Shown here piece after piece: positions 5,813-45,922 of a DNA stretch of 64,000 nt (its first letter is position 1; every line of letters starts with the position of its first letter). The position numbers were made by a program, and so were the translations under genes. Origin of the DNA: an uncultured Planctomycetaceae bacterium (GTDB lineage Bacteria; Planctomycetota; Planctomycetia; Gemmatales; Gemmataceae); NCBI GenBank assembly GCA_937888715.1, contig CALARU010000114.1, forward strand, positions 1-64,000, in the 5' to 3' direction. Under the pieces are notes generated by a model. The model saw only the letters and a list, made by a program, of their open reading frames with translations, did not search any database and had not been told where the DNA came from.

Positions 5813-6676
5813 ATGAAATTAGCAACGATTCAAACCCCACAAGGAAACAGAGCGGTACTTTTTCATGATGGTGCGCATATCGATATCAATGCCACCGATC
5901 CTTCACTACCCTCGAGTGTAAAAGCTATTTTAGAGGCTGGTGATGATGTGTTGAAAAAGGTAAAGGCGCTGGGCGGTTCAGCCAAAGCAGTTAAAATTGC
6001 TGCTGATAAAATCGCTTTTGCATCTCCTGTAGTTGATCCCAACAAGGTTGTTTGCATCGGCCTGAATTATAAAGACCATGCTGCTGAAAGTGGCATGCCC
6101 ATCCCCAAGGAACCTGTTCTTTTTAGCAAATTCCCCACGGCTTTGACCGGCCATGATCAACCTATTCTTCTCCCGCCTGTAAGCTCTAAAGTTGATTACG
6201 AAGCGGAACTGGTTCTCGTTGTTGGTAAAAAAGGTAAAAACCTTAAAGCTCATGATGCCATTAATTGGCTCGCAGGATACACCATCGGGCATGATGTTTC
6301 TGCAAGAGATTGGCAGTTGGAAAAAGATGGTAAGCAATGGATGGCAGGAAAAACATTCGATACCTTTGCACCATGTGGTCCTTATCTTGTTACCTGTGAT
6401 GAAATTCCTGATCCCCATAAATTAGCCATCAAACTTAGATTGAATGGCCAAACCATGCAGGATAGTACTACTAGTCAGCTTATTTTTTCGGTGGGTGAAA
6501 TTCTTGCTTACCTAACGCAGGTGGTAACTTTGTTGCCAGGCGATTTAATATTTACCGGCACGCCCCCAGGCGTGGGTATAGCTCGAAAGCCCCCTGTTTA
6601 TCTTAAGGCAGGAGATCTTTGTGAAGTTGAAATTGAAGGCTTGGGAATTCTTCGGAATCCAGTAGCAATGGGTTAA
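5813..6676 (+). CDS. Fumarylacetoacetate hydrolase (FAH) family protein
   Basis: This 287-residue protein has a short N-terminal domain and a C-terminal FAH catalytic fold. The core contains VCIGLNYKDHAAESGMPIPKEP, then SKVDYEAELVLVVGKKGKNL with the metal-binding acidic residues, GYTIGHDVSARDWQ, and GDLIFTGTPPGVG near the C-terminus. Members act on 2-oxo acids or acylpyruvates, for example acylpyruvase, 2-hydroxyhepta-2,4-diene-dioate isomerase or oxaloacetate decarboxylase; the specificity cannot be read from sequence here. AAGGAG lies eight bases before the ATG. It follows hpnD in the same direction with no visible terminator, but a metabolic link is not evident. Confidence 0.88.
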   Translation: MKLATIQTPQGNRAVLFHDGAHIDINATDPSLPSSVKAILEAGDDVLKKVKALGGSAKAVKIAADKIAFASPVVDPNKVVCIGLNYKDHAAESGMPIPKEPVLFSKFPTALTGHDQPILLPPVSSKVDYEAELVLVVGKKGKNLKAHDAINWLAGYTIGHDVSARDWQLEKDGKQWMAGKTFDTFAPCGPYLVTCDEIPDPHKLAIKLRLNGQTMQDSTTSQLIFSVGEILAYLTQVVTLLPGDLIFTGTPPGVGIARKPPVYLKAGDLCEVEIEGLGILRNPVAMG

Positions 6677-6696
6677 GCGGTGCTATGTATTTTTGA

Positions 6697-7437
6697 TTAG
6701 ATTGAGTTTGGAATGATTCGGGGTGGCGCAGGCTGCCCCGATTTCTTTTTACCAGCGTCTTCTTTAGGTTTCAAGAAATCCCATTCGTCTTTTTGGGGCG
6801 CTTTACCTTTTTGAGCTTCTTCGATTTGCTTGGCAATTGCTGCGATTTGCGTAAGGATCATATGGCCATCCAAAGACTTCTCTGCGGTATCAGTTTTACC
6901 CATTAAGCTTTTGAACAAATCGGTATCTGGTTTATCGCCCGCGGGAAGATGCAGGTTCTCGATGATATTTGGGTGCTGAGTTCCCCAAAGATTTTCATGA
7001 CAATTCAAAGTGACTAAAAGATCTACCGGGGTAGGGTTTACTTTGCCTGCCAGCCAATATGCAGCCGTACCGCCCAAGCCATGCCCTACGATTACAAAGT
7101 GCATTTCCGGATCGTTCTTGCTTAGGGTTTCAATATCCTTTGCGAACTGATGTGCGTGGTAGAGATAGCCAAAGTAAGTGTTATTAAAGCCAGCGGCTCG
7201 AACTTGCGCATTTAATTCACGAAACCCGCCACAATCACAGAAATCGAAATCCTCTATGAAAAAGACTGCGACTTTGCATTTCGAATTCGCAGAAGAGTCT
7301 GCGGTTAAGGTAGCGAAATCTGGTTGCAGAGTTCTGATGAAGGGTTCGTAAGGGTAATAAATCTGACAGCCGAGTGCAGAAAAAAGCATCCCGGTTAAAG
7401 GAATCAAGAACTGGTAAATTGATTTCTGGAAGCCCAT
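6697..7437 (-). CDS. Predicted lipoprotein with alpha/beta-hydrolase-like motif
   Basis: This 246-residue protein starts with a lipoprotein signal peptide (FLIPLTGMLFSALGC, lipobox Cys24). The mature part has the segment MHFVIVGHGLGGTAAYWLAG, which resembles the nucleophile elbow of alpha/beta hydrolases but has Gly-His-Gly-Leu-Gly instead of Gly-X-Ser-X-Gly, so the nucleophilic serine appears missing. The Lys/Pro-rich C-terminal tail looks disordered. It could be a non-catalytic hydrolase-fold lipoprotein. The stop lies 20 bases from the convergent FAH gene. Upstream on the same strand is the Gfo/Idh/MocA gene, 155 bases away. No specific function can be assigned. Confidence 0.7.
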   Translation of the reverse strand: MGFQKSIYQFLIPLTGMLFSALGCQIYYPYEPFIRTLQPDFATLTADSSANSKCKVAVFFIEDFDFCDCGGFRELNAQVRAAGFNNTYFGYLYHAHQFAKDIETLSKNDPEMHFVIVGHGLGGTAAYWLAGKVNPTPVDLLVTLNCHENLWGTQHPNIIENLHLPAGDKPDTDLFKSLMGKTDTAEKSLDGHMILTQIAAIAKQIEEAQKGKAPQKDEWDFLKPKEDAGKKKSGQPAPPRIIPNSI

Positions 7438-7592
7438 GAATAAACCCTACCCAAATAAAACCTATAAGAAGCACTATGTTCTATTCGGGTAAGGCAAAGA
7501 ATGAGCTTTAGGGAAAAGCTAAGAATAATCCGAATTTTACCATGTTGGTAAAAGGGGAAGAATGGGATGCAATCCAATTCGGTTAGGCTTTT

Positions 7593-8621
7593 CTACCCTA
7601 CGATCACCACTTTCTCTGTATTAACGGATTGAATTTCCTTGTGGCACAAAACCAATGCATCGCGTGCCAGGGCGCCACTCAGCAAGTCTGGTTCGATCCC
7701 TTTGACCACTCCGTTAACCGCGGCTTGAATTTCTTTAGTGAATGCAAAAAGTGGATCGCCAACGCCACTCAAAACTGGTTGTTTTGTTTTGCCATCTTTG
7801 GTGAGTAAGGTAAGAGGCTGGCCAACAGAATGATAAGTGAGGGTGGCTTTTTCCATGTAGATATCGAAACCATGTGCAAATGCTCTGCCGTCCATATTAA
7901 GTGCGCCACTGCTGCAAGAAATAGCAGGGCCATTATCCCCATACAAATATTGGGTGGTAAGGAACTCGACGGTGCCATCGTTTCGGGTGATCCCGTTAGA
8001 GAAAACCCTGCCTGGAACGCCGGCAATAAGGCCGATAAAGTGAGTATCGTGGATGTGTAAATCAACAGCAGGGCCGCCAGTTTTAGAGCTGTCATCGATG
8101 TCGCTCGACCAATCAGGTTTAGAGATGACCCTGACAAAATGCGCAGCTTGAAGCCTGCCATATTTTTCCGATTTAATGGCCTCTGCAGCAAAAGCGAATT
8201 CAGGAAAGAAAGGAAGAACATGTGCAACCATCAAAAGTTTACCTGCGTTTTTTGCAGCCTTCACCATCGCATCAGCCGACTTGATATCTAAAGCGATACT
8301 CTTTTCGACAAGCACATGTTTGCCAGCTTTAAGGGCAGCAATCGCCATGCTGGGGTGAAGATGGGTGGGTGAGCAGATATCAATCAGATCGATATCAGGA
8401 TCAGTAATCATATCTTCAAAGCGGTCAAATTTTTTATGTTGTGAAAGGTTCATTTGAGTGCCTGCGGGGCCGAAATTGCCTTGAATCCCGCGCCAGTCAC
8501 CTGCAAGTTTTTTAGGATCTCGACTAGAAATAGCAGTAACCTTTGCACCTTTAAGTTTTTGCGCAGCAAGGTAATGAATCATTCCCATGAAGCCAATGCC
8601 AGCGAGTCCAATGCGAATCAT
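7593..8621 (-). CDS. Gfo/Idh/MocA family NAD(P)-dependent oxidoreductase
   Basis: This 342-residue protein has the N-terminal Rossmann motif GLAGIGFMGMIHY, then DLIDICSPTHLHPSMAIAAL and KAGKHVLVEKSIAL with the conserved EK(S/P) lysine. The substrate-domain motif TGGPAVDLHIHDTHFI includes the HxxD-like catalytic histidine. Such enzymes oxidise or reduce sugars, inositols or related polyols, using NAD or NADP. The planctomycete genome context usually includes many of these. A weak AAAGG Shine-Dalgarno lies eight bases before the ATG at 8621. The substrate is unknown. Confidence 0.9.
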   Translation of the reverse strand: MIRIGLAGIGFMGMIHYLAAQKLKGAKVTAISSRDPKKLAGDWRGIQGNFGPAGTQMNLSQHKKFDRFEDMITDPDIDLIDICSPTHLHPSMAIAALKAGKHVLVEKSIALDIKSADAMVKAAKNAGKLLMVAHVLPFFPEFAFAAEAIKSEKYGRLQAAHFVRVISKPDWSSDIDDSSKTGGPAVDLHIHDTHFIGLIAGVPGRVFSNGITRNDGTVEFLTTQYLYGDNGPAISCSSGALNMDGRAFAHGFDIYMEKATLTYHSVGQPLTLLTKDGKTKQPVLSGVGDPLFAFTKEIQAAVNGVVKGIEPDLLSGALARDALVLCHKEIQSVNTEKVVIVG

Positions 8622-8942
8622 GTCGACAACCTTTCAAATTAAACAAGTAGAGACAAGTGGGTATCATAACCTGATTTGGGCCAAATACCATAGTTATAAG
8701 GGCCTTAAAATGTAACGATTATGCGGGCCTTTGTAGGCCTCGGAAAAATCTTCCCAACGCAATCTACCCTAATAAGTGTTACAGCTTTTTTCAGAATGTG
8801 AAAGTGTATCGGTAGTAAGGTTTCTCTGTGAGAAATTAACTTTCCTGCCCGGGCAATATCCACGGGTAAATTCTTTTATTTGTCGATTTTAAAACCTATC
8901 GCTTAAGGTTATTTGTTTGTTATTGGCTGTTTGGAGGGAATC
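8622..8942. other. Divergent intergenic region without a gene
   Basis: About 320 bases separate the starts of the minus-strand Gfo/Idh/MocA gene and the plus-strand HEAT-repeat gene. It should hold both promoters. I see no convincing -35/-10 pair, no RNA gene and no conserved reading frame; the only candidate upstream start for the right gene is a TTG at 8913. Confidence 0.5.
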
Positions 8943-9638
8943 ATGGACAGTCGCTTTTTTTTGGTAATGATGCTTGGGGTTGCCAGTATGGGGCCTGTGC
9001 AAGCAGGTGTAATTAATGGCAGTTTGTTCTTTGGCAAGAAGCCAGTTAAAAACCCAGTAGAAAGAGTTCCCGAGCTAATCGGAATTCTTAAAACCGATGG
9101 GGATGAAGACAAAAGAGCTGATGCAGCATCGGAGCTAAGGCAATTCGATCCTGCAGCCTTCCCTATGGTGGTGCCTGTGTTAATCGAAGCATTGGCTAAC
9201 GATAAAAAGCCCTCAGTAAGGGCGGAATCAGCCATATCACTCAGCAAGATTAGGCCGGTTTCCCCGTTTGTAGGGCAAGCACTTGAAAATTCGATAAGCA
9301 CAGATGCATCCATGAGAGTGCGTATTCAAGCAAGAAGTTCCTTGCTCCAATATAATCTTGCAGGGTATAGGTCTGCGCCTAAAAATATCGAAAGCGCAAT
9401 CCAAAGCGGTGAACCGCCGCTTGCAGATGCACCAACCATCATTCCAACATTTCCGGTTTCCAACGGGGCACCATTAATTGCCAAGCCAATATCAAGAATG
9501 AATTTGCTGAATCCTGGTACGAACCCAGCATTGAAGCCAGTGCCATCTTCGAAAAAAGCTGAGCCATTGAAATTGGAACCCTTAAAGAAAGACAGTAAGG
9601 TTAAAGTTATCGATGGGCCAGAACTTCTGCCTAACTAG
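8943..9638 (+). CDS. Exported HEAT-repeat protein
   Basis: The 231-residue protein has a signal peptide (MDSRFFLVMMLGVASMGPVQA). Residues about 35-140 form two to three HEAT-like helical repeats (VPELIGILKTDGDEDKRADA, then VPVLIEALANDKKPSVRAE and SISTDASMRVRIQARSSLLQ). The C-terminal 90 residues are Pro/Lys-rich and probably disordered. The ATG at 8943 is preferred to the TTG at 8913 because GGAGGG (8933-8938) stands just upstream and the signal peptide starts there. HEAT repeats usually mediate protein contacts; planctomycetes encode many exported HEAT proteins of unknown role. A terminator follows. Confidence 0.8.
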   Translation: MDSRFFLVMMLGVASMGPVQAGVINGSLFFGKKPVKNPVERVPELIGILKTDGDEDKRADAASELRQFDPAAFPMVVPVLIEALANDKKPSVRAESAISLSKIRPVSPFVGQALENSISTDASMRVRIQARSSLLQYNLAGYRSAPKNIESAIQSGEPPLADAPTIIPTFPVSNGAPLIAKPISRMNLLNPGTNPALKPVPSSKKAEPLKLEPLKKDSKVKVIDGPELLPN

Positions 9639-9670
9639 GGTGGTAAACTGGATTATTATAAAAGGAAGAA

Positions 9671-9702
9671 GGACTGGAGAAATAACTCCAGCCCTTTTTT
9701 TG
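9671..9702 (+). terminator. Intrinsic terminator after the HEAT-repeat gene
   Basis: The stem GGACTGGAG / CTCCAGCCC has a six-base AAATAA loop and is followed by seven T residues. It lies between the convergent HEAT-repeat gene and lpdA, 33 bases after the former's stop. Confidence 0.85.
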
Positions 9703-9734
9703 TGTTTTAGGTTGAAAGCAAAAGCGGATGAAGC

Positions 9735-11144
9735 TTAAGATTTTTTGGGCATTGCATGGGTCGGGTGTCCGAAAATAGATTCAGCAGCTTCTGAAAGGGT
9801 TTCAGAAAGAGTAGGATGCGCATGCATAGTCATGGCTAAATCGCGTGCACAAGCGCCCATTTCGATAGCAAGCATAGCTTCGCCAATCATTTCGCCAGCA
9901 TCGACTCCAACAATACCAATGCCAAGAATGCGCTCCGTTTTTGGGTCTACTAAAAGCTTGGTAAGGCCTTCGGTGCGTTTGCGAGTCATGGCTCTGCCTG
10001 ACCCTGCCCAAGGGAAACGAACGCGTTTAACTTCAATGCCTTTGGCTTGGGCTTCATTTTCAGTTAAGCCACACCAAGCAATTTCTGGATCGGTAAAAAT
10101 AACCGCAGGCACCGCTTTGACATCGTAAACAGCAGGCTCGCCACAAATCACTTCAGCAGCAATCTTGCCTTCGTAGGTAGCTTTATGCGCAAGCATAGGA
10201 TCACCAGCGACATCGCCAATTGCAAAAATATGCTCAACAGCAGTCCGCATTTGATCATCAACCGGGATGAAACCTTTTTGGTCTAAAACGATGCCGGTTT
10301 TATCGAGGCCGATATCGCCAGTGTTGGGCCTTCTGCCAACCGAAACCAGAACCCTGTCAAAAATCGGTTCTTTCTCGGTGACTTCTGGGCCTTCGATAGT
10401 TGCTTTGATTCCCTTTGCAACTTCTTCAACTTTGACAACCTTGGTTTTAAGGAAGATTTTGTGAAAGATGGTTTCAAGTCTGCGGTGTAAAGGCATAACA
10501 AGATCGCGATCAGCGCCAGGCAATAAGCCATCCGACATTTCTACAACGGTGACTTTACTACCCAAAGAAGCATAAACAAAACCCAGTTCTAATCCGATGT
10601 AGCCACCACCAACGACGAGAAGCTTAGCAGGAATATCTTCGAGTTTCAGAGCGCCTGTGGAATCCATGATGCGATTGGTGGGAAGGTTGAAAGCAGGTGG
10701 CTTAGTTGGGCTAGACCCTGTACTAATAATACATTTTTCGAATTTGACAGAGCCTTTGCCTTCGACCTCGATGGTGTTGGGCGAGGTAAACTTACCTTTG
10801 CCTTGAACAAAGTTAATTTTTCGTGCATCGCAAAGCCTTCCCAGATTGGTGGAAAAGGAGCTTACGACATTCTGCCAATGGCCGCGAACGAGATTGAGAT
10901 CGATCTTTGGTTCGCCGAATTTAAGTCCAAAGTGGATACCTTCCTTGGCATCTTGGATTAGTTTAGCGATATGTAAAACAGATTTTGAAGGAATGCACCC
11001 AACATTAAGGCATGTGCCGCCTGGTTTGGGCCCAGTTTCAATAAGTGTAACTTTCATGCCAAGGTCAGCAGCAAGAAAAGCAGCGGCGTATCCCCCTGGC
11101 CCCGCACCTAAAACAGCCAGTTGGGTTTCCTGAATCTGTGCCAT
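9735..11144 (-). CDS. lpdA: Dihydrolipoyl dehydrogenase (E3)
   Basis: This 469-residue flavoprotein is the E3 component that reoxidises dihydrolipoamide of the pyruvate dehydrogenase complex. The FAD-binding motif is AVLGAGPGGYAAAF (residues 10-23). The redox-active disulfide is Cys45-Cys50 in GGTCLNVGCIPSKS. The NAD-binding Rossmann motif is VVGGGYIGLELGFVYASLG, and the second FAD motif is HIFAIGDVAGDPMLAHKA. The C-terminal interface has the catalytic dyad in MHAHPTLSET. It is the last gene of the aceE-aceF-lpdA operon, about 45 bases after aceF. The length is typical and nothing is missing. Confidence 0.96.
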   Translation of the reverse strand: MAQIQETQLAVLGAGPGGYAAAFLAADLGMKVTLIETGPKPGGTCLNVGCIPSKSVLHIAKLIQDAKEGIHFGLKFGEPKIDLNLVRGHWQNVVSSFSTNLGRLCDARKINFVQGKGKFTSPNTIEVEGKGSVKFEKCIISTGSSPTKPPAFNLPTNRIMDSTGALKLEDIPAKLLVVGGGYIGLELGFVYASLGSKVTVVEMSDGLLPGADRDLVMPLHRRLETIFHKIFLKTKVVKVEEVAKGIKATIEGPEVTEKEPIFDRVLVSVGRRPNTGDIGLDKTGIVLDQKGFIPVDDQMRTAVEHIFAIGDVAGDPMLAHKATYEGKIAAEVICGEPAVYDVKAVPAVIFTDPEIAWCGLTENEAQAKGIEVKRVRFPWAGSGRAMTRKRTEGLTKLLVDPKTERILGIGIVGVDAGEMIGEAMLAIEMGACARDLAMTMHAHPTLSETLSEAAESIFGHPTHAMPKKS

Positions 11145-11189
11145 TTCATTAGATCCTTATGTAAACAAAAGTAGTCAAAAGGCCTGAAA

Positions 11190-12461
11190 TTAAGCGTGAA
11201 TAAGAAGCTGATAAGGGTTTTCAAGCATCTCAGCCAACCGCCTCGTAAATCGGGCAGCAATCGCCCCATCAATCACTCTATGATCATAGGAGAGAGACAA
11301 AGGCATCATCAAGCGTGGGACAATTTCCCCGTTATGAACAACTGGTTCAAGCCTGCCTCGCGAGATACCCAGAATTGCAACTTCAGGATAATTGACAATA
11401 GGAGTGAACCCAGTGCCACCAATCCCACCCAGATTCGTGATGGTAAAGGTACCACCGGTAAGATCTTTGGAATCGAGTTTGCGTTGCCTTGCCCGCTCAG
11501 CAATGGAAGTCAATTCTTCAGCAAGTTCAGCAATGCTTTTTTTGTCGACATCGCGGATCACAGGAACAAGAAGGCCGTTTTCTGTATCGACTGCAACGCC
11601 TATATTATAAAACTTCTTGTGGATGATTTGATTACCCGCAACATCAATGCTGCTGTTGAATACAGGGTATTCCTTAAGCAGAACAACCACAGCCTTCATC
11701 GCAAAAGCCGAGATGGTAAGCTTTGGTCCCTTGGTTTGCGATTTGCGAAATGCTTCGAAATCGGTGATGTCTGATAAATCGCTTTGAGTAACATGTGGCA
11801 CAATGCTCCATGAAAGCGACATTTGCCTAGCAGTGGCCCTGCGAATGGCAGACATGGGCTGCCTTTCAACGGTACCAAAATCTTCGAAGCGTGGAAGAGG
11901 CGGAACAGAAATGGAGCCACCCGTGGATCCGTTTGAGCCGCTGCCTCGCACGAAGCTTCGTACATCATCTTCGCTAACTCTGCCATGCCTGCCAGTGCCT
12001 GGAACATGACCAAGATCGACGCCAAGCTCTCGGGCAATTCTTCTGGTGGAAGGGCCTGCGGGGATAACCTTGTTATCATCGTGAGCAAGAACAATAGGTG
12101 CAGTTTTCGTGGCAGTTGCAGTTACAACTGGAGGAACCGCAGCAGGAGCGGGAATAGGAGCAGCCACAGGTGTTTTTTTAGGAACAGGTGGAGGAGATGA
12201 GGAAGCTGCAGCAGCGCCTGCACCAGCAGGGTCGATGACAAAAATAAGTTGCCCTATTTTTACTTGATCGCCTTGCTTGATCAGGATCTGGGTGATTTTT
12301 CCAGCAGCGGGTGAGGGCACTTCGAGTGCAGCCTTATCAGCTTGAACTTCGACCAAAGGTTGATCTTTGGTAACAATGTCACCCACATTTACCTTGATAG
12401 CGTTGACTTCAACAATCTCGACATTTTCTTTGAGGGCTTGCAGCTTGAATTCAATGGACAT
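11190..12461 (-). CDS. aceF: Dihydrolipoamide acetyltransferase (E2), pyruvate dehydrogenase
   Basis: The 423-residue E2 has one N-terminal lipoyl domain (lipoyl lysine Lys43 in VQADKAALEVPSPAAG), then an Ala/Pro-rich linker. A peripheral subunit-binding domain follows (IPAGPSTRRIARELGVDLG, VPGTGRHGRVSEDDV), and then the acyltransferase core with catalytic SLSYDHRVIDGAIAARF near the C-terminus. It transfers the acetyl group to CoA and forms the complex core. The ATG at 12461 is preferred over an upstream ATG at 12503 because the lipoyl domain starts there and AAGGA precedes it. A single lipoyl domain is fewer than the three of E. coli but is common elsewhere. Confidence 0.95.
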   Translation of the reverse strand: MSIEFKLQALKENVEIVEVNAIKVNVGDIVTKDQPLVEVQADKAALEVPSPAAGKITQILIKQGDQVKIGQLIFVIDPAGAGAAAASSSPPPVPKKTPVAAPIPAPAAVPPVVTATATKTAPIVLAHDDNKVIPAGPSTRRIARELGVDLGHVPGTGRHGRVSEDDVRSFVRGSGSNGSTGGSISVPPLPRFEDFGTVERQPMSAIRRATARQMSLSWSIVPHVTQSDLSDITDFEAFRKSQTKGPKLTISAFAMKAVVVLLKEYPVFNSSIDVAGNQIIHKKFYNIGVAVDTENGLLVPVIRDVDKKSIAELAEELTSIAERARQRKLDSKDLTGGTFTITNLGGIGGTGFTPIVNYPEVAILGISRGRLEPVVHNGEIVPRLMMPLSLSYDHRVIDGAIAARFTRRLAEMLENPYQLLIHA

Positions 12462-40661: not shown

Positions 40662-41396
40662 ATGCGTGTGATCGCTGCTATCGATATTTTAAATGGTCAG
40701 GTTGTTGCAGGATTATCGGGGGTCCGGGAGTCGTATAAGCCGTTAATTTCAAAGCTTGTAAGTGCAACTAATCCATTTGAATTGATTATGGAAATGCGAG
40801 AGGCTTTGGGCCTCAATGATTTTTATATCGCAGATTTAGATGCGATTTTAACTGGGAAAAAGAATGAGAATCTTTATTCTTTGTTGGTAAAAGAGGGTGT
40901 CCACATTTATTTGGATGCTGGCTCCAAGAATTGTGCAGACCTTCAATATTTGATGAACATGAATGTTTTTAAAGTGGTTGCAGGATTGGAAACTATTGAA
41001 AGCAGTGAAGAGCTGGAAACCGCAGCCAAGAGGTTTGGGAGCCGGTTGGTTTTTTCATTGGACATGAAAAATGGTGTACCTTTTACCACCCGAGAGGAAC
41101 TGGTTTTAAAATCACCTCAATCCATAATGAAGGATGCCATTAATGCTGGCGTTGATCATCTTTTTATTCTTGATTTAGCAAAAGTTGGAACAGGAAAAGG
41201 GGCTTTAACTGATGGTCTGGTTGCAAAAGCAAGAACCCTATCAGAAAAAATCTTCATCATGGCGGGGGGTGGGATTGGGAGTTTTCAAGATGTAATAGGC
41301 TTGAAAAATTCAGGTGCGAATGCGGTGGTTGTTTCTCGTGCGTTGCACGATGGAACTTTTGATAGGCAAGCAATAAAAGTAATATCAGCCTTGTAA
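40662..41396 (+). CDS. HisA-like TIM-barrel protein of the H4MPT neighbourhood
   Basis: The 244-residue protein resembles HisA/HisF phosphate-binding TIM barrels: RVIAAIDILNGQVVAGLSG (Asp8 position), DFYIADLDAILTGKK, VFSLDMKNGVPF (second Asp), and the C-terminal phosphate site IMAGGGIGSFQDVIGLKNSG. HisA-like genes of this kind accompany the tetrahydromethanopterin C1 genes in methylotrophs and planctomycetes, and are thought to act in cofactor biosynthesis, but the reaction is not settled. It starts four bases after the pseudouridine synthase and converges on the PTPS gene, overlapping it by 12 bases. It is not the histidine-pathway HisA on the evidence of context alone; real HisA activity cannot be excluded. 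Confidence 0.72.
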   Translation: MRVIAAIDILNGQVVAGLSGVRESYKPLISKLVSATNPFELIMEMREALGLNDFYIADLDAILTGKKNENLYSLLVKEGVHIYLDAGSKNCADLQYLMNMNVFKVVAGLETIESSEELETAAKRFGSRLVFSLDMKNGVPFTTREELVLKSPQSIMKDAINAGVDHLFILDLAKVGTGKGALTDGLVAKARTLSEKIFIMAGGGIGSFQDVIGLKNSGANAVVVSRALHDGTFDRQAIKVISAL

Positions 41397-41876
41397 TTCG
41401 CAGGTTGCTGATTGGCCAAAACTTTCTTCGACCTCAACCCGCAAAATATCAGGCGTATAATTGTGCTGTTTCTTCAAGCTTTCTAGAAGGGTTTTTCCAA
41501 TATAAAGCGCCAGTTGTTCTGCAGTGGTGTTTGATATGGGCAAAATTACGCAGTCTTCTGCAGGGAAAACCCATTCTTTTTCTTTGTATTTAACGCAAAC
41601 TCTGGTGCCTTCTTCCCGGACTTCGATGACTTTATTGTTTTTTGCAAGCATCATGCGATGATCAAGTAGATCGGTGATTTCTTTGGTACGGTGTTTTAGA
41701 GCGATAAAGTCGAAAACATAGTGGTTCTCGTCGAGTTTGCCTTCAATTTCAATCTTGGCTCGATAGTTATGCCCATGAATTCTTTCGCATTTGCTGTTCT
41801 CATAGCTAATGAAATGCCCAGAGCAGAAAACCAGGTGATCTTTGGTTACAGTGATCTTGTATTTTTCATTTGCCAT
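41385..41876 (-). CDS. 6-pyruvoyltetrahydropterin synthase (PTPS/QueD) family protein
   Basis: The 163-residue protein has the PTPS zinc ligands in FCSGHF (first His) and CERIHGHNYRAKIEIEG (second and third His), and a QueD-like CxxxHGH arrangement of the cysteine (SKCERIHGH). A second family motif, HYVFDFIALK and LLDHRMML, follows, and ISNTTAEQLALYIG near the end. PTPS-family members act on dihydroneopterin triphosphate or related pterins in folate, biopterin and queuosine pathways. Being next to H4MPT genes, a role in the pterin part of H4MPT is plausible, but queuosine synthesis is an alternative. It is the last gene in this minus-strand set, 57 bases after the CitG-like gene. Confidence 0.82.
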   Translation of the reverse strand: MANEKYKITVTKDHLVFCSGHFISYENSKCERIHGHNYRAKIEIEGKLDENHYVFDFIALKHRTKEITDLLDHRMMLAKNNKVIEVREEGTRVCVKYKEKEWVFPAEDCVILPISNTTAEQLALYIGKTLLESLKKQHNYTPDILRVEVEESFGQSATCELQG

Positions 41877-41933
41877 GCCGTTTTCCAGTCAATGAATGAG
41901 TGCGCCTTGATCGTATAGATATTTTATGAATAA

Positions 41934-42860
41934 TTAAAAGTCTGGCGCAGTTCTTCGTAAAGCATTTTCAATTCCATCCGACCAAGGGAAGGTTAGGGGT
42001 AGAGAGATTTGCCCTAGGCGCAGGGCGATAAAAAGGGTGACAGCAATTAAATCAGCAGTGGCGCCCGGGTTTCGTTTGTTGCCTTCCATGCGAAGCCAGC
42101 GGTCAAGATCTTTGAATTCGGCCCAGCCAGATTCTTTCAAAGGCCATTGTTTTTCTAAAACTTTTTTGGCCCTTTCAGAAGATTCTTTGGCATCATTGGG
42201 GCCACATTTGCGCAAAATCAGTGAGTCGGGGTACTTCCCCATTAAATATAGATGGGTGAAAATGATGGCGCCTTCCATGCAGCCCAGTTGCTCTAGCGCA
42301 CCGCCCAGGGTTGGAATTGCATCATTGAAAATCGCACAATACCCATCCGCATATTGTTGGGCAATTAGGTCGCGATCTTGCGCCAATCGCATGGCTTCTA
42401 AAAGTGTGCAGGTCGGAACCTCGTTAATATCAGCTTGAGGTTCTTTACCCATGCCGCCTGGGGATGCAAGTCTGATTGCATCATAAATGATTTTGGTTTC
42501 TTCGATGGAGATGTCTGCAATTGCTTTTTGCATTTCTTTTTTGAGTTCTGCGCCATTGTTGGCGAATGCAACCGGAGCAAATAAAAGGATGATTCCAAGG
42601 TTGGTATTGGTTCCAACGGAGGTTTTAGTTGTTTTGACTGATTCAAAAATAGCATTAGCCAAGCCTAATTTTCGGGTTTTGCAAAGAATGGGAGCAATGG
42701 CCCCGGCACTTAAAATAAAATCTGTGAAATGAAGGTTATGAAACGAAGCAAGAGGGTGGACATTTCCGATTTTTCGGGCAGTTGCCTCCCATATACATGC
42801 TGCATGAATTTGTCGTGAGAGTTCTAATTCAAGCATAGTTTCTTCAGGAATGGTTTGCAT
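41934..42860 (-). CDS. CitG-like triphosphoribosyl-dephospho-CoA synthase family protein (H4MPT cluster orf7-like)
   Basis: The 308-residue protein belongs to the CitG family (EATARKIGNVHPLASFHNLH, SVGTNTNLGIILLFAP, KRNPGATADLIAVTLFIAL). In methylotrophs and planctomycetes a homolog stands with mch and the ATP-grasp genes (orf7), where its reaction is not established; no citrate lyase genes are near. I take the ATG at 42860, overlapping the stop of the RimK-like gene by 17 bases; an ATG at 42836 is possible. An earlier ATG at 42962 would lie inside the upstream gene. Translational coupling with the upstream ATP-grasp gene is likely. Confidence 0.78.
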   Translation of the reverse strand: MQTIPEETMLELELSRQIHAACIWEATARKIGNVHPLASFHNLHFTDFILSAGAIAPILCKTRKLGLANAIFESVKTTKTSVGTNTNLGIILLFAPVAFANNGAELKKEMQKAIADISIEETKIIYDAIRLASPGGMGKEPQADINEVPTCTLLEAMRLAQDRDLIAQQYADGYCAIFNDAIPTLGGALEQLGCMEGAIIFTHLYLMGKYPDSLILRKCGPNDAKESSERAKKVLEKQWPLKESGWAEFKDLDRWLRMEGNKRNPGATADLIAVTLFIALRLGQISLPLTFPWSDGIENALRRTAPDF

Positions 42861-43701
42861 AAATAAGGATTTCTCTTGCGATATCGATTTCTGTAACTGG
42901 TGCAAAGGCCTTCCATCCCGGAACAGCATTGACTTCCAAAACCAACCATTTTCCATTCTCATCTAATATCAAATCAACTCCTGCAATTTCAGCCCCCACT
43001 GCGTTGGAAGCCTTGATGCCAATCTCTTCAAGATTAGAGTTTAGTTTGTAGGATTCGCCTTTTCCACCTTGTGCAACATTGGTCATCCAAGCGCCTTGGG
43101 GAGCGGTTCGCTTCATCCCCCCAAGAACTTTTTTACCGAGAATAAATATGCGAAGATCCCATCCTGGGTGTTTGATATAGGGTTGCAGATAAATGACGCC
43201 CCCGATCTTTTCGATCGCACGGAATACTCTCCATGCCAGTTGCTCATCTTCGATCCGTAATATTCCCCGGCCTTCTGCACCAAATAAAGGTTTTACAACG
43301 ATATCTTTGCCAAATCTTTCGAAGGCTTCCATTGCGGTATCAGAATCTTGACAGCAAAAAGTATGTGGAATATCCAGCCCGTGTGTTTGCAGGAGTTCGC
43401 TTGCAAGAAATTTATCCACTGCAGATTCGAGTGCCCGGGGTGGGTTTAAAACTTTTTTGCCCTGGCGCTGTAGGGCATGAAGTACATCCATTCTAAAAAC
43501 AACCTGCTCCAAAGAACCTGGTGGCATGGTTCGGATGATGGTGCAATCTGCTTCTTCAAACGCTTGTTTTGAAGGCTGTGCCAGAGAGTGGGATATTAAG
43601 CGGAAGTCGGTTACATGGGCTTTAACCCCAAGGGATTGTGCTGCTCGCAGCAAGTCTTTGACATGCCAACCTTCTTTGCCACCCATGATGTTGAAAATCA
43701 T
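42844..43701 (-). CDS. RimK-like ATP-grasp protein (H4MPT cluster orf5-like)
   Basis: The 285-residue protein has the ATP-grasp fold: an N-terminal domain with PPRALESAVDKFLASELLQT, the ATP-binding strand IVVKPLFGAEGRGILRI, and the Mg-binding end LVLEVNAVPGWKAFAPVT. It is close to the RimK/MptN group, which ligates an amino acid to a cofactor or protein. In H4MPT clusters this gene (orf5 in Methylobacterium) is next to mch; the archaeal MptN adds glutamate to tetrahydromethanopterin to give tetrahydrosarcinapterin. A glutamate-adding or related role in making the cofactor is plausible. It lies 27 bases downstream of mch. Confidence 0.8.
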   Translation of the reverse strand: MIFNIMGGKEGWHVKDLLRAAQSLGVKAHVTDFRLISHSLAQPSKQAFEEADCTIIRTMPPGSLEQVVFRMDVLHALQRQGKKVLNPPRALESAVDKFLASELLQTHGLDIPHTFCCQDSDTAMEAFERFGKDIVVKPLFGAEGRGILRIEDEQLAWRVFRAIEKIGGVIYLQPYIKHPGWDLRIFILGKKVLGGMKRTAPQGAWMTNVAQGGKGESYKLNSNLEEIGIKASNAVGAEIAGVDLILDENGKWLVLEVNAVPGWKAFAPVTEIDIAREILIYANHS

Positions 43702-43728
43702 AAATAATGTCCGTGAATGAAAGTGGAA

Positions 43729-44682
43729 TTAGTTCCAAGATTTGTTAAGCAAGTTGGTTTCAAACTTACCGAACTGGAAACACCTTCCTGTTTTCAAATT
43801 GTAAAAGTGGACAGTTGCAGGGGAAAAGAGGAGGGGATCAATTTTGTAGAAATCTCCTTTCACTTTGCGAAAGATTTCAGCAAAAGGTTGTCCATGATCG
43901 GAAGAAGAGTTTGAGGGAACTTTGGGGCCAAAGCTTGCAATGATATCATCTTCGGTATCGACCCAAAGATGTACTGCTGCGCCATATAAGATTGCATCAT
44001 TGGTGCGGCCAATTGCTTCGGTAAAGTCTGGGGATGGTGGCGCAAGGGGTGCCCAGCCTGCACCTTGTTTGATCGCATCTATAGGAAATTTTAACTCATG
44101 AAGTTTGTGCATTGCTGTTTCAACACTTCGTGCAACTATCTGAATGGAGCCTGCGATACTGCCAGTTGGTGCACCTAAAAGGGTTATGTTTTCATGAGGC
44201 AATTCCAGCTTGGAAGATAAATAATCAAAGACTGCAGAGTCGGGCGCTTTGCTTGTTTCGAGGATGCCAACAACATGGGGGGATTTTTCTCTGCCTGGAA
44301 TATGGTTGAATAAATCTTCGCTGCCATAGTGGGCGCGCATGGGGCCTGAACCCATTGCAAAAAACTTTCCCACAGCAATTTGCCAGCCTGCATACTGCGA
44401 TGCCAGGCATGAAAGAACGGGGTGATCGGTCGCTACTGCGATGGCGGGCCCTTTCCATAAATCTAGATGGCTGGGGGCCAAAGAAATTTTAGCAAGGCCG
44501 GACATGCAAGCACGTGCTAGTTCCAATCCTGCTTGAATTCCACCTTTGCTTTTTATGCCAAAATCGAGAAAAGTTCCATTCGCTTCTGTTTTGCTTTCAT
44601 CCAAACCAAGTTCGTTAATTCTAGCTTGGGCACGATTTACAATGCGCAGAGCGCCAGCGTTAAGATTTAAATTGACTGTCAT
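43729..44682 (-). CDS. mch: Methenyl-tetrahydromethanopterin cyclohydrolase
   Basis: The 317-residue protein matches Mch of methanogens and methylotrophs: NLNAGALRIVNRAQARINEL, LDFGIKSKGGIQAGLELARA, WQIAVGKFFAMGSGPMRAH, NITLLGAPTGSIAGSIQIVA, and the C-terminal GRTNDAILYGAAVHLWVDTE. It hydrolyses methenyl-H4MPT to formyl-H4MPT in oxidation of formaldehyde. The start at the ATG 44682 has GAGGA about five bases upstream; the ATG at 44763 would overlap the ATP-grasp gene by 32 bases. This is the clearest H4MPT enzyme in the window. The formaldehyde-activating enzyme, methylene-H4MPT dehydrogenase and formyltransferase genes are not nearby. Confidence 0.96.
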   Translation of the reverse strand: MTVNLNLNAGALRIVNRAQARINELGLDESKTEANGTFLDFGIKSKGGIQAGLELARACMSGLAKISLAPSHLDLWKGPAIAVATDHPVLSCLASQYAGWQIAVGKFFAMGSGPMRAHYGSEDLFNHIPGREKSPHVVGILETSKAPDSAVFDYLSSKLELPHENITLLGAPTGSIAGSIQIVARSVETAMHKLHELKFPIDAIKQGAGWAPLAPPSPDFTEAIGRTNDAILYGAAVHLWVDTEDDIIASFGPKVPSNSSSDHGQPFAEIFRKVKGDFYKIDPLLFSPATVHFYNLKTGRCFQFGKFETNLLNKSWN

Positions 44683-44731
44683 GCGATCCTCGATTTTATG
44701 TTGATCAAAACTAATACCTTTAATCAGACAA

Positions 44732-45922
44732 TTAAACCAAGTTGTTTTGCAAAGTGCCAACATGGAATAGTGAGTCTAATTGAGAAGTTCGTGTTTTCAA
44801 TTGAACTTTGACTTCGGTTAAAGAGTCTGCTTTTGCGAAAACAGTAATAACCGGTGAGCCCTTGTGAATGGCAGAGCCGGTTTTTGGAATATCTGCAAAA
44901 GGTGAAAACAACAGAGGATTTGCCTCGATTGAATGCCAAGGTGCTTCTTTTGGAATCAAAACATCATGTGGAGCATAGTAGATGGCTTTCCCAATTACGG
45001 TTGTTTCGCTGGGAGCAGGATTTTCATAAATAGGCTTGATGCCAAAAGCTTGCAAATGTTTAGTTATAAAATTTTGGCCTAGGGCTAATTCCAATACTTC
45101 CATGGAAGCTGTATAGCGAGGATTTATCTCAAGTGGATAAACCTTTGAATCATTTAAAATGTAGTCCAACCCTAGTAGACCACGGGGGCGATAATTGCTG
45201 GATATTATTTTGCCAATAGTTTGAAGTTCTTTTAGTTCGGAGTTACAAGGTTTTACTGGCCCCATGTTGCCCGAGTATAAAAAATCATTTGCATGCAAAG
45301 ATTGTGTGCCTGAAGATTGAATGCTCAAGCCTAAAAGTTCAAAGCCTGATTCGGTAAAGCAAAAGATGGCACTACGGCTTTCGCCATTTTTGAATTCTTG
45401 ATAGTAAAAATCAGAATCATCTACCATTGCTTGTTTACTTGGATCAAAAGGCTTTATTCCAAGCCCTCCAGAACGGTATTTAGGTTTGCGGAGATATGAG
45501 GTTTCGTTATTTAAATCCTTCATACTAATAATAATTGCAGGTGTATTTATTTGCTTGGACTTTAACAGTTTATAAAATCCAGGAATGTTTCTGAGATTAT
45601 AAAGAGTACGTCCAGTTATACCAAGAATAGTTCGCTGGGCGGATAGGAAATGTAACAGTGCTGAATGGTTTTCCAGGCCACCTGTATAAAGTATGGGTAC
45701 TTTCGGGGCAGCTTTGATCAAGTCCGAGATTTCGTCGGGAAACGATTTTGTAATCAAGGTGGTGGGGCAGTTTTTTGCGAGGTCTTCATCTGCATAAAGA
45801 TCGATGCACCATGGCTGATAACCTGCTCTTATGCACGAAAATGCCAAGGAGCGAACGCTTGCCCCTATTAATATTAAGGTTGCATTGTCGCCCTTGCGAG
45901 GTAAATTAAATCTTCCTGCCAT
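44732..45922 (-). CDS. ATP-grasp protein (H4MPT cluster orf17-like)
   Basis: The 396-residue protein has an N-terminal Rossmann-like part (LILIGASVRSLAFSCIRAGY) and an ATP-grasp domain with LRKPKYRSGGLGIKPF, SNYRPRGLLGLDYILND and the Mg-binding PLEINPRYTASMEVLEL. It resembles the orf17 protein (COG1821-type ATP-grasp) that stands in methylotroph H4MPT clusters; its substrate is unknown, a carboxyl-amine ligation in the cofactor tail being one hypothesis. The stop lies 49 bases before the mch start. It is divergent from the heme/HEAT dehydrogenase gene, 60 bases away. Confidence 0.8.
   Translation of the reverse strand: MAGRFNLPRKGDNATLILIGASVRSLAFSCIRAGYQPWCIDLYADEDLAKNCPTTLITKSFPDEISDLIKAAPKVPILYTGGLENHSALLHFLSAQRTILGITGRTLYNLRNIPGFYKLLKSKQINTPAIIISMKDLNNETSYLRKPKYRSGGLGIKPFDPSKQAMVDDSDFYYQEFKNGESRSAIFCFTESGFELLGLSIQSSGTQSLHANDFLYSGNMGPVKPCNSELKELQTIGKIISSNYRPRGLLGLDYILNDSKVYPLEINPRYTASMEVLELALGQNFITKHLQAFGIKPIYENPAPSETTVIGKAIYYAPHDVLIPKEAPWHSIEANPLLFSPFADIPKTGSAIHKGSPVITVFAKADSLTEVKVQLKTRTSQLDSLFHVGTLQNNLV

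Follow-up and report, generated by a model that had tools for sequence, protein, structure and literature searches.

A CitG-like protein in a planctomycete one-carbon gene block as a candidate enzyme of tetrahydromethanopterin assembly

We examined a six-gene block (positions 40662-45922) in a stretch of 64,000 nucleotides, hereafter the window, from contig CALARU010000114.1 of an uncultured Planctomycetaceae bacterium (GCA_937888715.1, a 4.56-Mb draft assembly). Its genes make up the core of the bacterial tetrahydromethanopterin (H4MPT) and methylofuran system; the block is an ordinary member of that known system in which a 6-pyruvoyltetrahydropterin synthase (PTPS) gene takes the place of fae. 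New here is the assignment of its CitG-like protein (Orf7), which probably belongs to the pterin arm, that is, to H4MPT assembly; less surely, we assign it to ribosyl transfer, with a protein of family DUF447 as its partner. H4MPT carries one-carbon (C1) units in methanogens, methylotrophs and many archaea. To our knowledge, some steps of its synthesis after ribofuranosylaminobenzene 5'-phosphate (RFAP) synthase have no assigned enzyme.

The distribution of the CitG-like gene points to the pterin. We sampled 250 genomes of one archaeal phylum, that of G061, the metagenome-assembled genome (MAG) of a member of the Thermofilaceae to which locus L061 belongs. RFAP synthase was counted there at E ≤ 1e-10, a threshold chosen after seeing the values (182 genomes at E ≤ 1e-3, 102 kept; the weaker matches are presumed to be other GHMP kinases), and weak matches to DUF447 (G144, G273) and MfnB (G172, G226) were dropped. 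CitG was present in 125 genomes, RFAP synthase in 102, DUF447 in 87, methenyl-H4MPT cyclohydrolase (Mch) in 68 and MfnB in 40. CitG was closely linked to having RFAP synthase or Mch (both 123, CitG only 2, other only 16, neither 109; phi 0.86) although those two are themselves unlinked (phi 0.06), so CitG appears to mark the pterin carrier and not one C1 enzyme or the furan cofactor. Taken singly, the link of CitG was stronger to RFAP synthase (both 96, CitG only 29, RFAP only 6, neither 119; phi 0.73) than to Mch (55, 70, 13 and 112 in the same order; phi 0.38), and RFAP synthase was in turn linked to DUF447 (86, 16, 1 and 147; phi 0.86). The link to MfnB was weak (phi 0.35), and MfnB was absent from 89 of the 125 genomes with CitG.

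A set spread more widely gave a similar picture. A CitG-alignment scan of named genomes gave 478 related loci, of which the best 80 were kept (62 archaeal and 18 bacterial, split by record name; L048 and L049 are one genome); from these loci we chose 50 genomes to spread taxa. A convincing RFAP synthase was found in 45 of them (46 at E ≤ 1e-3, 43 over the cut-off; G067, with E 6e-4, was counted as lacking it) and MfnB in 28; 18 genomes had RFAP synthase without MfnB and one the reverse. The idea that the CitG-like protein tracks methanofuran synthesis was rejected, its link to MfnB being weak both here and in the phylum sample. Among 14 named control genomes, RFAP synthase and DUF447 occurred in the same four (M. 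jannaschii, H. volcanii, S. acidocaldarius and M. acetivorans); CitG occurred in those four and in E. coli, which has the true CitG, and MfnB solely in M. jannaschii and M. acetivorans. For telling the two arms apart, the 41 genomes around the window were too uniform (CitG 37, RFAP synthase 37, MfnB 39, Fae 38); three of them (G002, G011, G017) have CitG without RFAP synthase.

Gene neighbours add to this, among them PTPS, which adjoins CitG in 16 of 20 relatives. At least 23 of the 62 archaeal loci have DUF447 directly after CitG, a count that misses haloarchaeal loci with over-extended open reading frames (ORFs), and none of the 18 bacterial ones does; CofD is near CitG in 21 archaeal loci, and a DUF6513 gene, similar to dihydropteroate synthase (DHPS) and pterin-binding, in seven. 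Within the phylum sample, DUF447 starts no more than 1.5 kb from RFAP synthase in 36 of the 86 genomes that have the two, and equally close to CitG in 16 of 82, where chance on a 1.6-Mb genome would give fewer than one for either. The archaeal CitG-DUF447 pairs (haloarchaea, Methanomicrobia, Archaeoglobales, Hadesarchaea and others) belong to the same CitG-like family as the window protein, and the window's genome also has DUF447 and RFAP genes; however, DUF447 of this planctomycete adjoins RFAP synthase and not CitG. At the eight planctomycete RFAP loci examined (8 of the 37 genomes with the gene) DUF447 was always present, directly upstream in seven, the host genome included, and fused in one (a 506-aa ORF, L008:1489-3009). 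Locus L133 reads DHPS-like, DUF447, RFAP synthase, MfnB. Many of the 62 archaeal loci are from haloarchaea or Lokiarchaeota; as a separate observation, five haloarchaeal loci (L062, L064, L077, L078, L100; about 6000-9400) have CofD, CitG-like and DUF447 genes clustered, and the RFAP match in those genomes is over the cut-off.

The name of family PF01874, and the product name carried by many plasmid orthologs, would make the window protein a real triphosphoribosyl-dephospho-CoA synthase, serving the carrier protein of citrate lyase or malonate decarboxylase. We consider this extremely improbable. The protein scores 37.5 bits against the equivalog models, whose cut-offs are 272.3 (CitG) and 282.35 (MdcB), and on these values it was rejected as a true CitG; neither citrate lyase nor malonate decarboxylase was found among nine window proteins scanned or in two annotated plasmid islands, and the linkage with RFAP synthase or Mch also speaks against it. 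E. coli CitG shares core residues with it (E27, K32, G34, N87, G91, D214, P267, G268, A271 and D272 in the numbering of the 310-aa window protein), but the identity is 21% and the E. coli gene has citrate lyase neighbours, of which there are none here. An AlphaFold2 model of the CitG-like protein (pLDDT 93.6) found one good structural match, 3h9p, a putative triphosphoribosyl-dephospho-CoA synthase from the archaeon A. fulgidus (Z 22.9, root-mean-square deviation 2.5, 218 residues aligned, 25% identity). ADP-ribosyl hydrolases of the ARH3/DraG type fill nearly all of ranks 2-24, at Z 3.3-4.2, under the safe level of the search tool and too weak to build on. Such hydrolases act on alpha-ribosyl O-glycosides.

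What reaction might the protein catalyse? From ATP, CitG builds an alpha-ribosyl O-glycoside onto dephospho-CoA, and the second ribose of dephospho-H4MPT (dH4MPT) is alpha-linked to ribitol. After RFAP synthase, according to what White's work is said to have established, the ribose ring still has to be opened and reduced and a second ribose added. We give about even chances to the proposal that the CitG-like protein transfers the alpha-ribosyl unit of H4MPT; using CitG-type chemistry, it would attach a (5-phospho)ribosyl unit through an alpha linkage to the ribitol 5-OH of the growing pterin. The core residues that CitG-like proteins have in common with E. coli CitG speak for this. According to its description, dH4MPT of M. 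extorquens has neither the phosphate nor the hydroxyglutaric acid part (PMC8141765), so it should keep the second ribose. The likely partner, DUF447, perhaps a flavoprotein, may be a reductase that uses flavin to turn the ribofuranosyl ring into open-chain ribitol; we propose this because ring opening driven by the para-amino group, followed by hydride from the flavin, is chemically plausible. Solved relatives of the host DUF447 are 3b5m, 2iml and 2ptf, some of which presumably bind flavin mononucleotide (FMN), and the member at L038 has a weak PNPOx_N match, under the cut-off. As a whole, we only tentatively put forward that the two proteins are enzymes of methanopterin synthesis in bacteria and archaea, haloarchaea and Sulfolobales among them, with DUF447 opening the ring after RFAP synthase, the CitG-like protein then adding an alpha-ribosyl unit derived from ATP or phosphoribosyl pyrophosphate (PRPP), and a second route existing to the arylamine sugar.

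Several observations, of distribution and of gene order, weigh against this assignment. The co-occurrence counts come from related genomes, which are not independent events, and phylogeny was ignored. Three of the 41 relatives (G018, G024, G029) have RFAP synthase without CitG, and planctomycete RFAP scores often fall under the curated cut-off, which 16 of the 41 genomes exceed and the host does not (89.7 vs 113.5 bits). Four of the 50 genomes with CitG (two Theionarchaea, a Chloroflexi and a Thermoplasmata) have neither RFAP synthase nor MfnB, and the one noted above has MfnB only. In the phylum sample, 13 genomes with Mch, three of them with RFAP synthase, are without CitG; conversely, of the 29 genomes with CitG and no RFAP synthase, 27 (e.g. 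G091, G142, G219, G231, G246, G335) have Mch and none has DUF447. Haloarchaea are said to use folate and to be without methanopterin-specific enzymes (PMC8305020), yet they carry the gene set. Such lineages, not known for H4MPT proper (H. volcanii, S. acidocaldarius), and the 27 genomes with Mch and CitG but no RFAP synthase or DUF447 would suit an alternative in which the CitG-like protein acts on an H4MPT-type pterin at some other step, be it another sugar or phosphate transfer or one on a modified folate of haloarchaea and Sulfolobales. We regard this as rather unlikely: no specific version of it found support, and CitG chemistry together with the structure of dH4MPT favours ribosyl transfer as the simplest reading. 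If ribosyl transfer is right, then in the genomes that have Mch and CitG without RFAP synthase and DUF447 the CitG-like protein perhaps acts without its usual acceptor, or the arylamine sugar may come from an unrecognised RFAP synthase or by a second route.

The contrary points from gene order involve the methylofuran genes. Half of the block, the two ATP-grasps and the HisA-like gene, serves methylofuran and not H4MPT, which follows from the published roles of MyfA, MyfB and Orf17. From its position, we take the ATP-grasp_3 gene of the window to be orfY. Judged by sequence, the two window ATP-grasps appear to correspond to MyfA and MyfB, and an ATP-grasp of the RimK/MptN type does stand beside mch. 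OrfY and Orf5 were renamed MyfA and MyfB as ligases of the methylofuran glutamate chain; MyfB is a glutamate ligase in vitro, M. extorquens has polyglutamate ligase activity on methylofuran, and the role of MyfA was assigned from intermediates that pile up in its mutant (PMC8141765). MyfA would add the second glutamate of methylofuran and MyfB lengthen the chain. Mch is the C1 enzyme of the block. Now, MyfB adjoins CitG in 11 of the 18 bacterial loci (and in 1 of the 62 archaeal ones), no bacterial locus has DUF447 beside CitG, and at L025 MyfB (RimK) and the CitG-like protein are fused in one 572-aa ORF (8744-10462), followed by PTPS. These neighbours, the fusion and the context of the block would fit a CitG-like protein that works in methylofuran synthesis like MyfA, MyfB and Orf17, for example by placing the side-chain branch or activating a precursor. 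Nonetheless, we think this improbable, given the many phylum-sample genomes that have CitG without MfnB, the same combination in H. volcanii and S. acidocaldarius, and the archaeal placement of CitG near DUF447, CofD and the pterin-binding DHPS-like gene.

The HisA-like protein is the third methylofuran member. Deletion of orf17 (PF00977), obtained in Methylorubrum extorquens PA1 with mxaF already deleted, abolishes methylofuran while methenyl-dH4MPT is still detected, and the role of Orf17 is there called unclear (PMC8141765). The window protein reaches 77.2 bits against the true HisA equivalog TIGR00007, under the cut-off of 228.95. An alignment of six Orf17-type proteins, one of them from the window, shows the same pattern in all: Asp8 and Asp134 fall opposite D8 and the second Asp of true HisA, the second phosphate loop is kept, and the first (GGGIRS in HisA) is of a DAG type. 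The two aligned Asp residues are catalytic in HisA. This suggests an acid-base, isomerase-type step on a smaller, singly phosphorylated substrate; Orf17 would act early in methylofuran synthesis. The family match and the Asp pair could also mean a spare isomerase of the histidine pathway that is there by chance. We hold this to be very improbable in view of the low equivalog score, the altered first loop and the loss of methylofuran on deletion (PMC8141765); moreover, the gene adjoins PTPS in 6 of 20 relatives and occupies the same place in two proteobacterial islands.

The block itself is laid out in Table 1. All six ORFs are present at the positions given, and in profile searches each matched its expected family, which bears out the gene order and strands of the first-pass annotation. 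Its label of an 'orf17-like ATP-grasp' was mistaken, Orf17 being the PF00977 (HisA-type) protein (PMC8141765). The same annotation listed the ATP-grasps, along with the CitG-like and HisA-like proteins, as lacking a resolved reaction; for the ATP-grasps this is out of date, since they are published as MyfA and MyfB (PMC8141765). From the clustered ligases and the pterin enzyme it read a cofactor-building role for the uncharacterised members; much of the block builds methylofuran and not H4MPT. Relatives of Mch in the Protein Data Bank are 1qlm, 4gvq and 4fio, and the true start of mch probably lies about 30 codons inside the ORF. The CitG-like ORF probably starts near 42860, because at 342 aa it overlaps the RimK gene by 119 bases and the same-genus ortholog at L017 has 308 aa (L018 has 323; the other two have 342). 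The convergent HisA-like and PTPS ORFs share 12 bases at their ends (41385-41396), as they do in the four same-genus relatives examined.

Table 1. Genes of the block, with positions in the window and profile matches.
Gene or product	Position	Strand	Match and remarks
HisA-like TIM-barrel protein, Orf17 family (methylofuran synthesis)	40662..41396	+	PF00977 107.5 bits; TIGR00734 112.2 bits, under cut-off 179.85
PTPS with CExxHGH motif, PTPS-I/III hybrid type	41385..41876	-	PF01242 83.4 bits; CERIHGH in ORF
CitG-like protein, Orf7 by position	41934..42962	-	PF01874 198.9 bits; proposed H4MPT alpha-ribosyl transferase
RimK/MptN-like ATP-grasp, counterpart of Orf5 = MyfB	42844..43701	-	NF040720 MptN 254.8 bits (cut-off 350); PF08443 114.5 bits
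mch, methenyl-H4MPT cyclohydrolase	43729..44763	-	TIGR03120 370 bits (cut-off 228.8); aligned from residue 34 on
ATP-grasp_3 protein, counterpart of OrfY = MyfA	44732..45922	-	PF02655 57.9 bits

The pathway partners are present elsewhere in the host genome. That fae lies outside the block had been seen correctly, and a search of the genome for it and for RFAP synthase found both, as well as MfnB: Fae at G000:C210:1169-1642 (E 2.4e-68), MfnB on contig C263 (E 4.5e-52) and RFAP synthase on G000:C312 (E 2.6e-25), where its 89.7 bits stay under the cut-off of 113.5 and where it is 32% identical to the annotated Azospirillum RFAP synthase (4e-43). DUF447 is directly upstream of it (L128: DUF447 9790-10368, RFAP synthase 10328-11326). 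With Mch above its equivalog cut-off as well, the genome is not one devoid of other H4MPT genes, and absence of the pathway partners was ruled out by these matches.

Conservation shows that the block is shared with relatives. We took 20 loci from the 37 genomes with CitG among the 41 around the window; the whole order is kept in four (L016-L019, all of the same genus), flanks too, and in three further loci (L023, L027, L028) minus the HisA-like gene. CitG adjoins PTPS in 16 of the 20, six of these 16 being without Mch or MyfB in the stretch taken. Because the order is kept in relatives and this adjacency recurs, it is not due to chance.

The block also has counterparts in Proteobacteria, which supports the earlier view of an H4MPT-linked C1 block common to methylotrophs and planctomycetes. 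All five genes other than PTPS, which are ATP-grasp, mch, RimK, CitG-like and the converging HisA-like gene, recur in this order in an island of a Phyllobacterium plasmid (NZ_CP088274) and in an Azospirillum island with a similar core; there, however, fae sits where the window has PTPS, with the HisA-like gene beyond it. The Phyllobacterium island begins with RFAP synthase, an mtdB-type dehydrogenase, ATP-grasp, mch, RimK, CitG-like, fae, HisA-like (minus strand) and a hydantoinase-family protein that we take to be MfnF-like, and continues on the minus strand with DUF447, DUF6513, a flavoprotein, an amino-acid-kinase-family protein and MfnB. In the window's genome, contigs other than that of the block carry RFAP synthase with DUF447, MfnB and fae. 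One-to-one identities between the window and the Phyllobacterium core are 44% for Mch, 33% for CitG-like, 33% for RimK, 29% for HisA-like and 24% for the ATP-grasp. The ATP-grasp figure refers to the gene just upstream of mch (380 columns, 3e-25); over both islands, the RimK beside mch is 33-36% and the HisA-like protein 28-29% identical. Methylosinus trichosporium has islands reading mch-orf5-orf7-fae1/1-fae1/2-orf17 and orf19-orf20-afpA-orf21-orf22 (PMC3615186). Going by position, the CitG-like protein corresponds to Orf7, the HisA-like one to Orf17, DUF447 to Orf19 and DUF6513 to Orf20, the mapping of Orf7, Orf19 and Orf20 being that of the present analysis. As a side observation, the gene order at the Thermofilaceae locus (L061:1457-8846), with Fwd-type, Mch, MptN/MyfB-like and CitG-like genes, is that of the bacteria.

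Finally, the PTPS gene concerns the supply of pterin. The window protein reads CERIHGH, and the CExxHGH motif was found in all 25 other PTPS beside CitG (loci of Planctomycetota, Gemmatimonadetes and one Ardenticatenia record); left out of this count are L111, whose PTPS is partial, and the distant PTPS of L038 and L082. ExxHGH marks PTPS-III (folate, and tetrahydromethanopterin in specific archaea) and CxxxHGH marks QueD, and CExxHGH hybrids serve both (PMC5041015). The Phyllobacterium MfnB (L136:17994-19795) carries a C-terminal FolB domain (PF04476 + PF02152); the host MfnB ORF has just 240 aa. PTPS-I/III would make 6-hydroxymethyl-dihydropterin without FolB and could do in the window's genome the job of the domain fused to MfnB in Phyllobacterium, the two being putative alternative suppliers of this compound to the pathway. 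In the same Phyllobacterium island, a neighbour annotated as 'dihydroneopterin aldolase' matches the amino-acid kinase family instead (L136).

Our assignment of the CitG-like protein and DUF447 was not found in the searchable literature, which mostly does not include subscription papers, so that a description of orf7 or orf19 mutants elsewhere is possible. These two candidate genes, which co-occurrence, gene order and fusions link to the pathway, make the missing steps of H4MPT synthesis testable. If the assignment is true, the label 'triphosphoribosyl-dephospho-CoA synthase' on annotated plasmid orthologs would be corrected, haloarchaea and Sulfolobales would also make a methanopterin-type pterin, and archaea with Mch and CitG but neither RFAP synthase nor DUF447 would have a second way of making the arylamine sugar. 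PTPS suggests a possible source of pterin for a planctomycete block that has no FolB gene.

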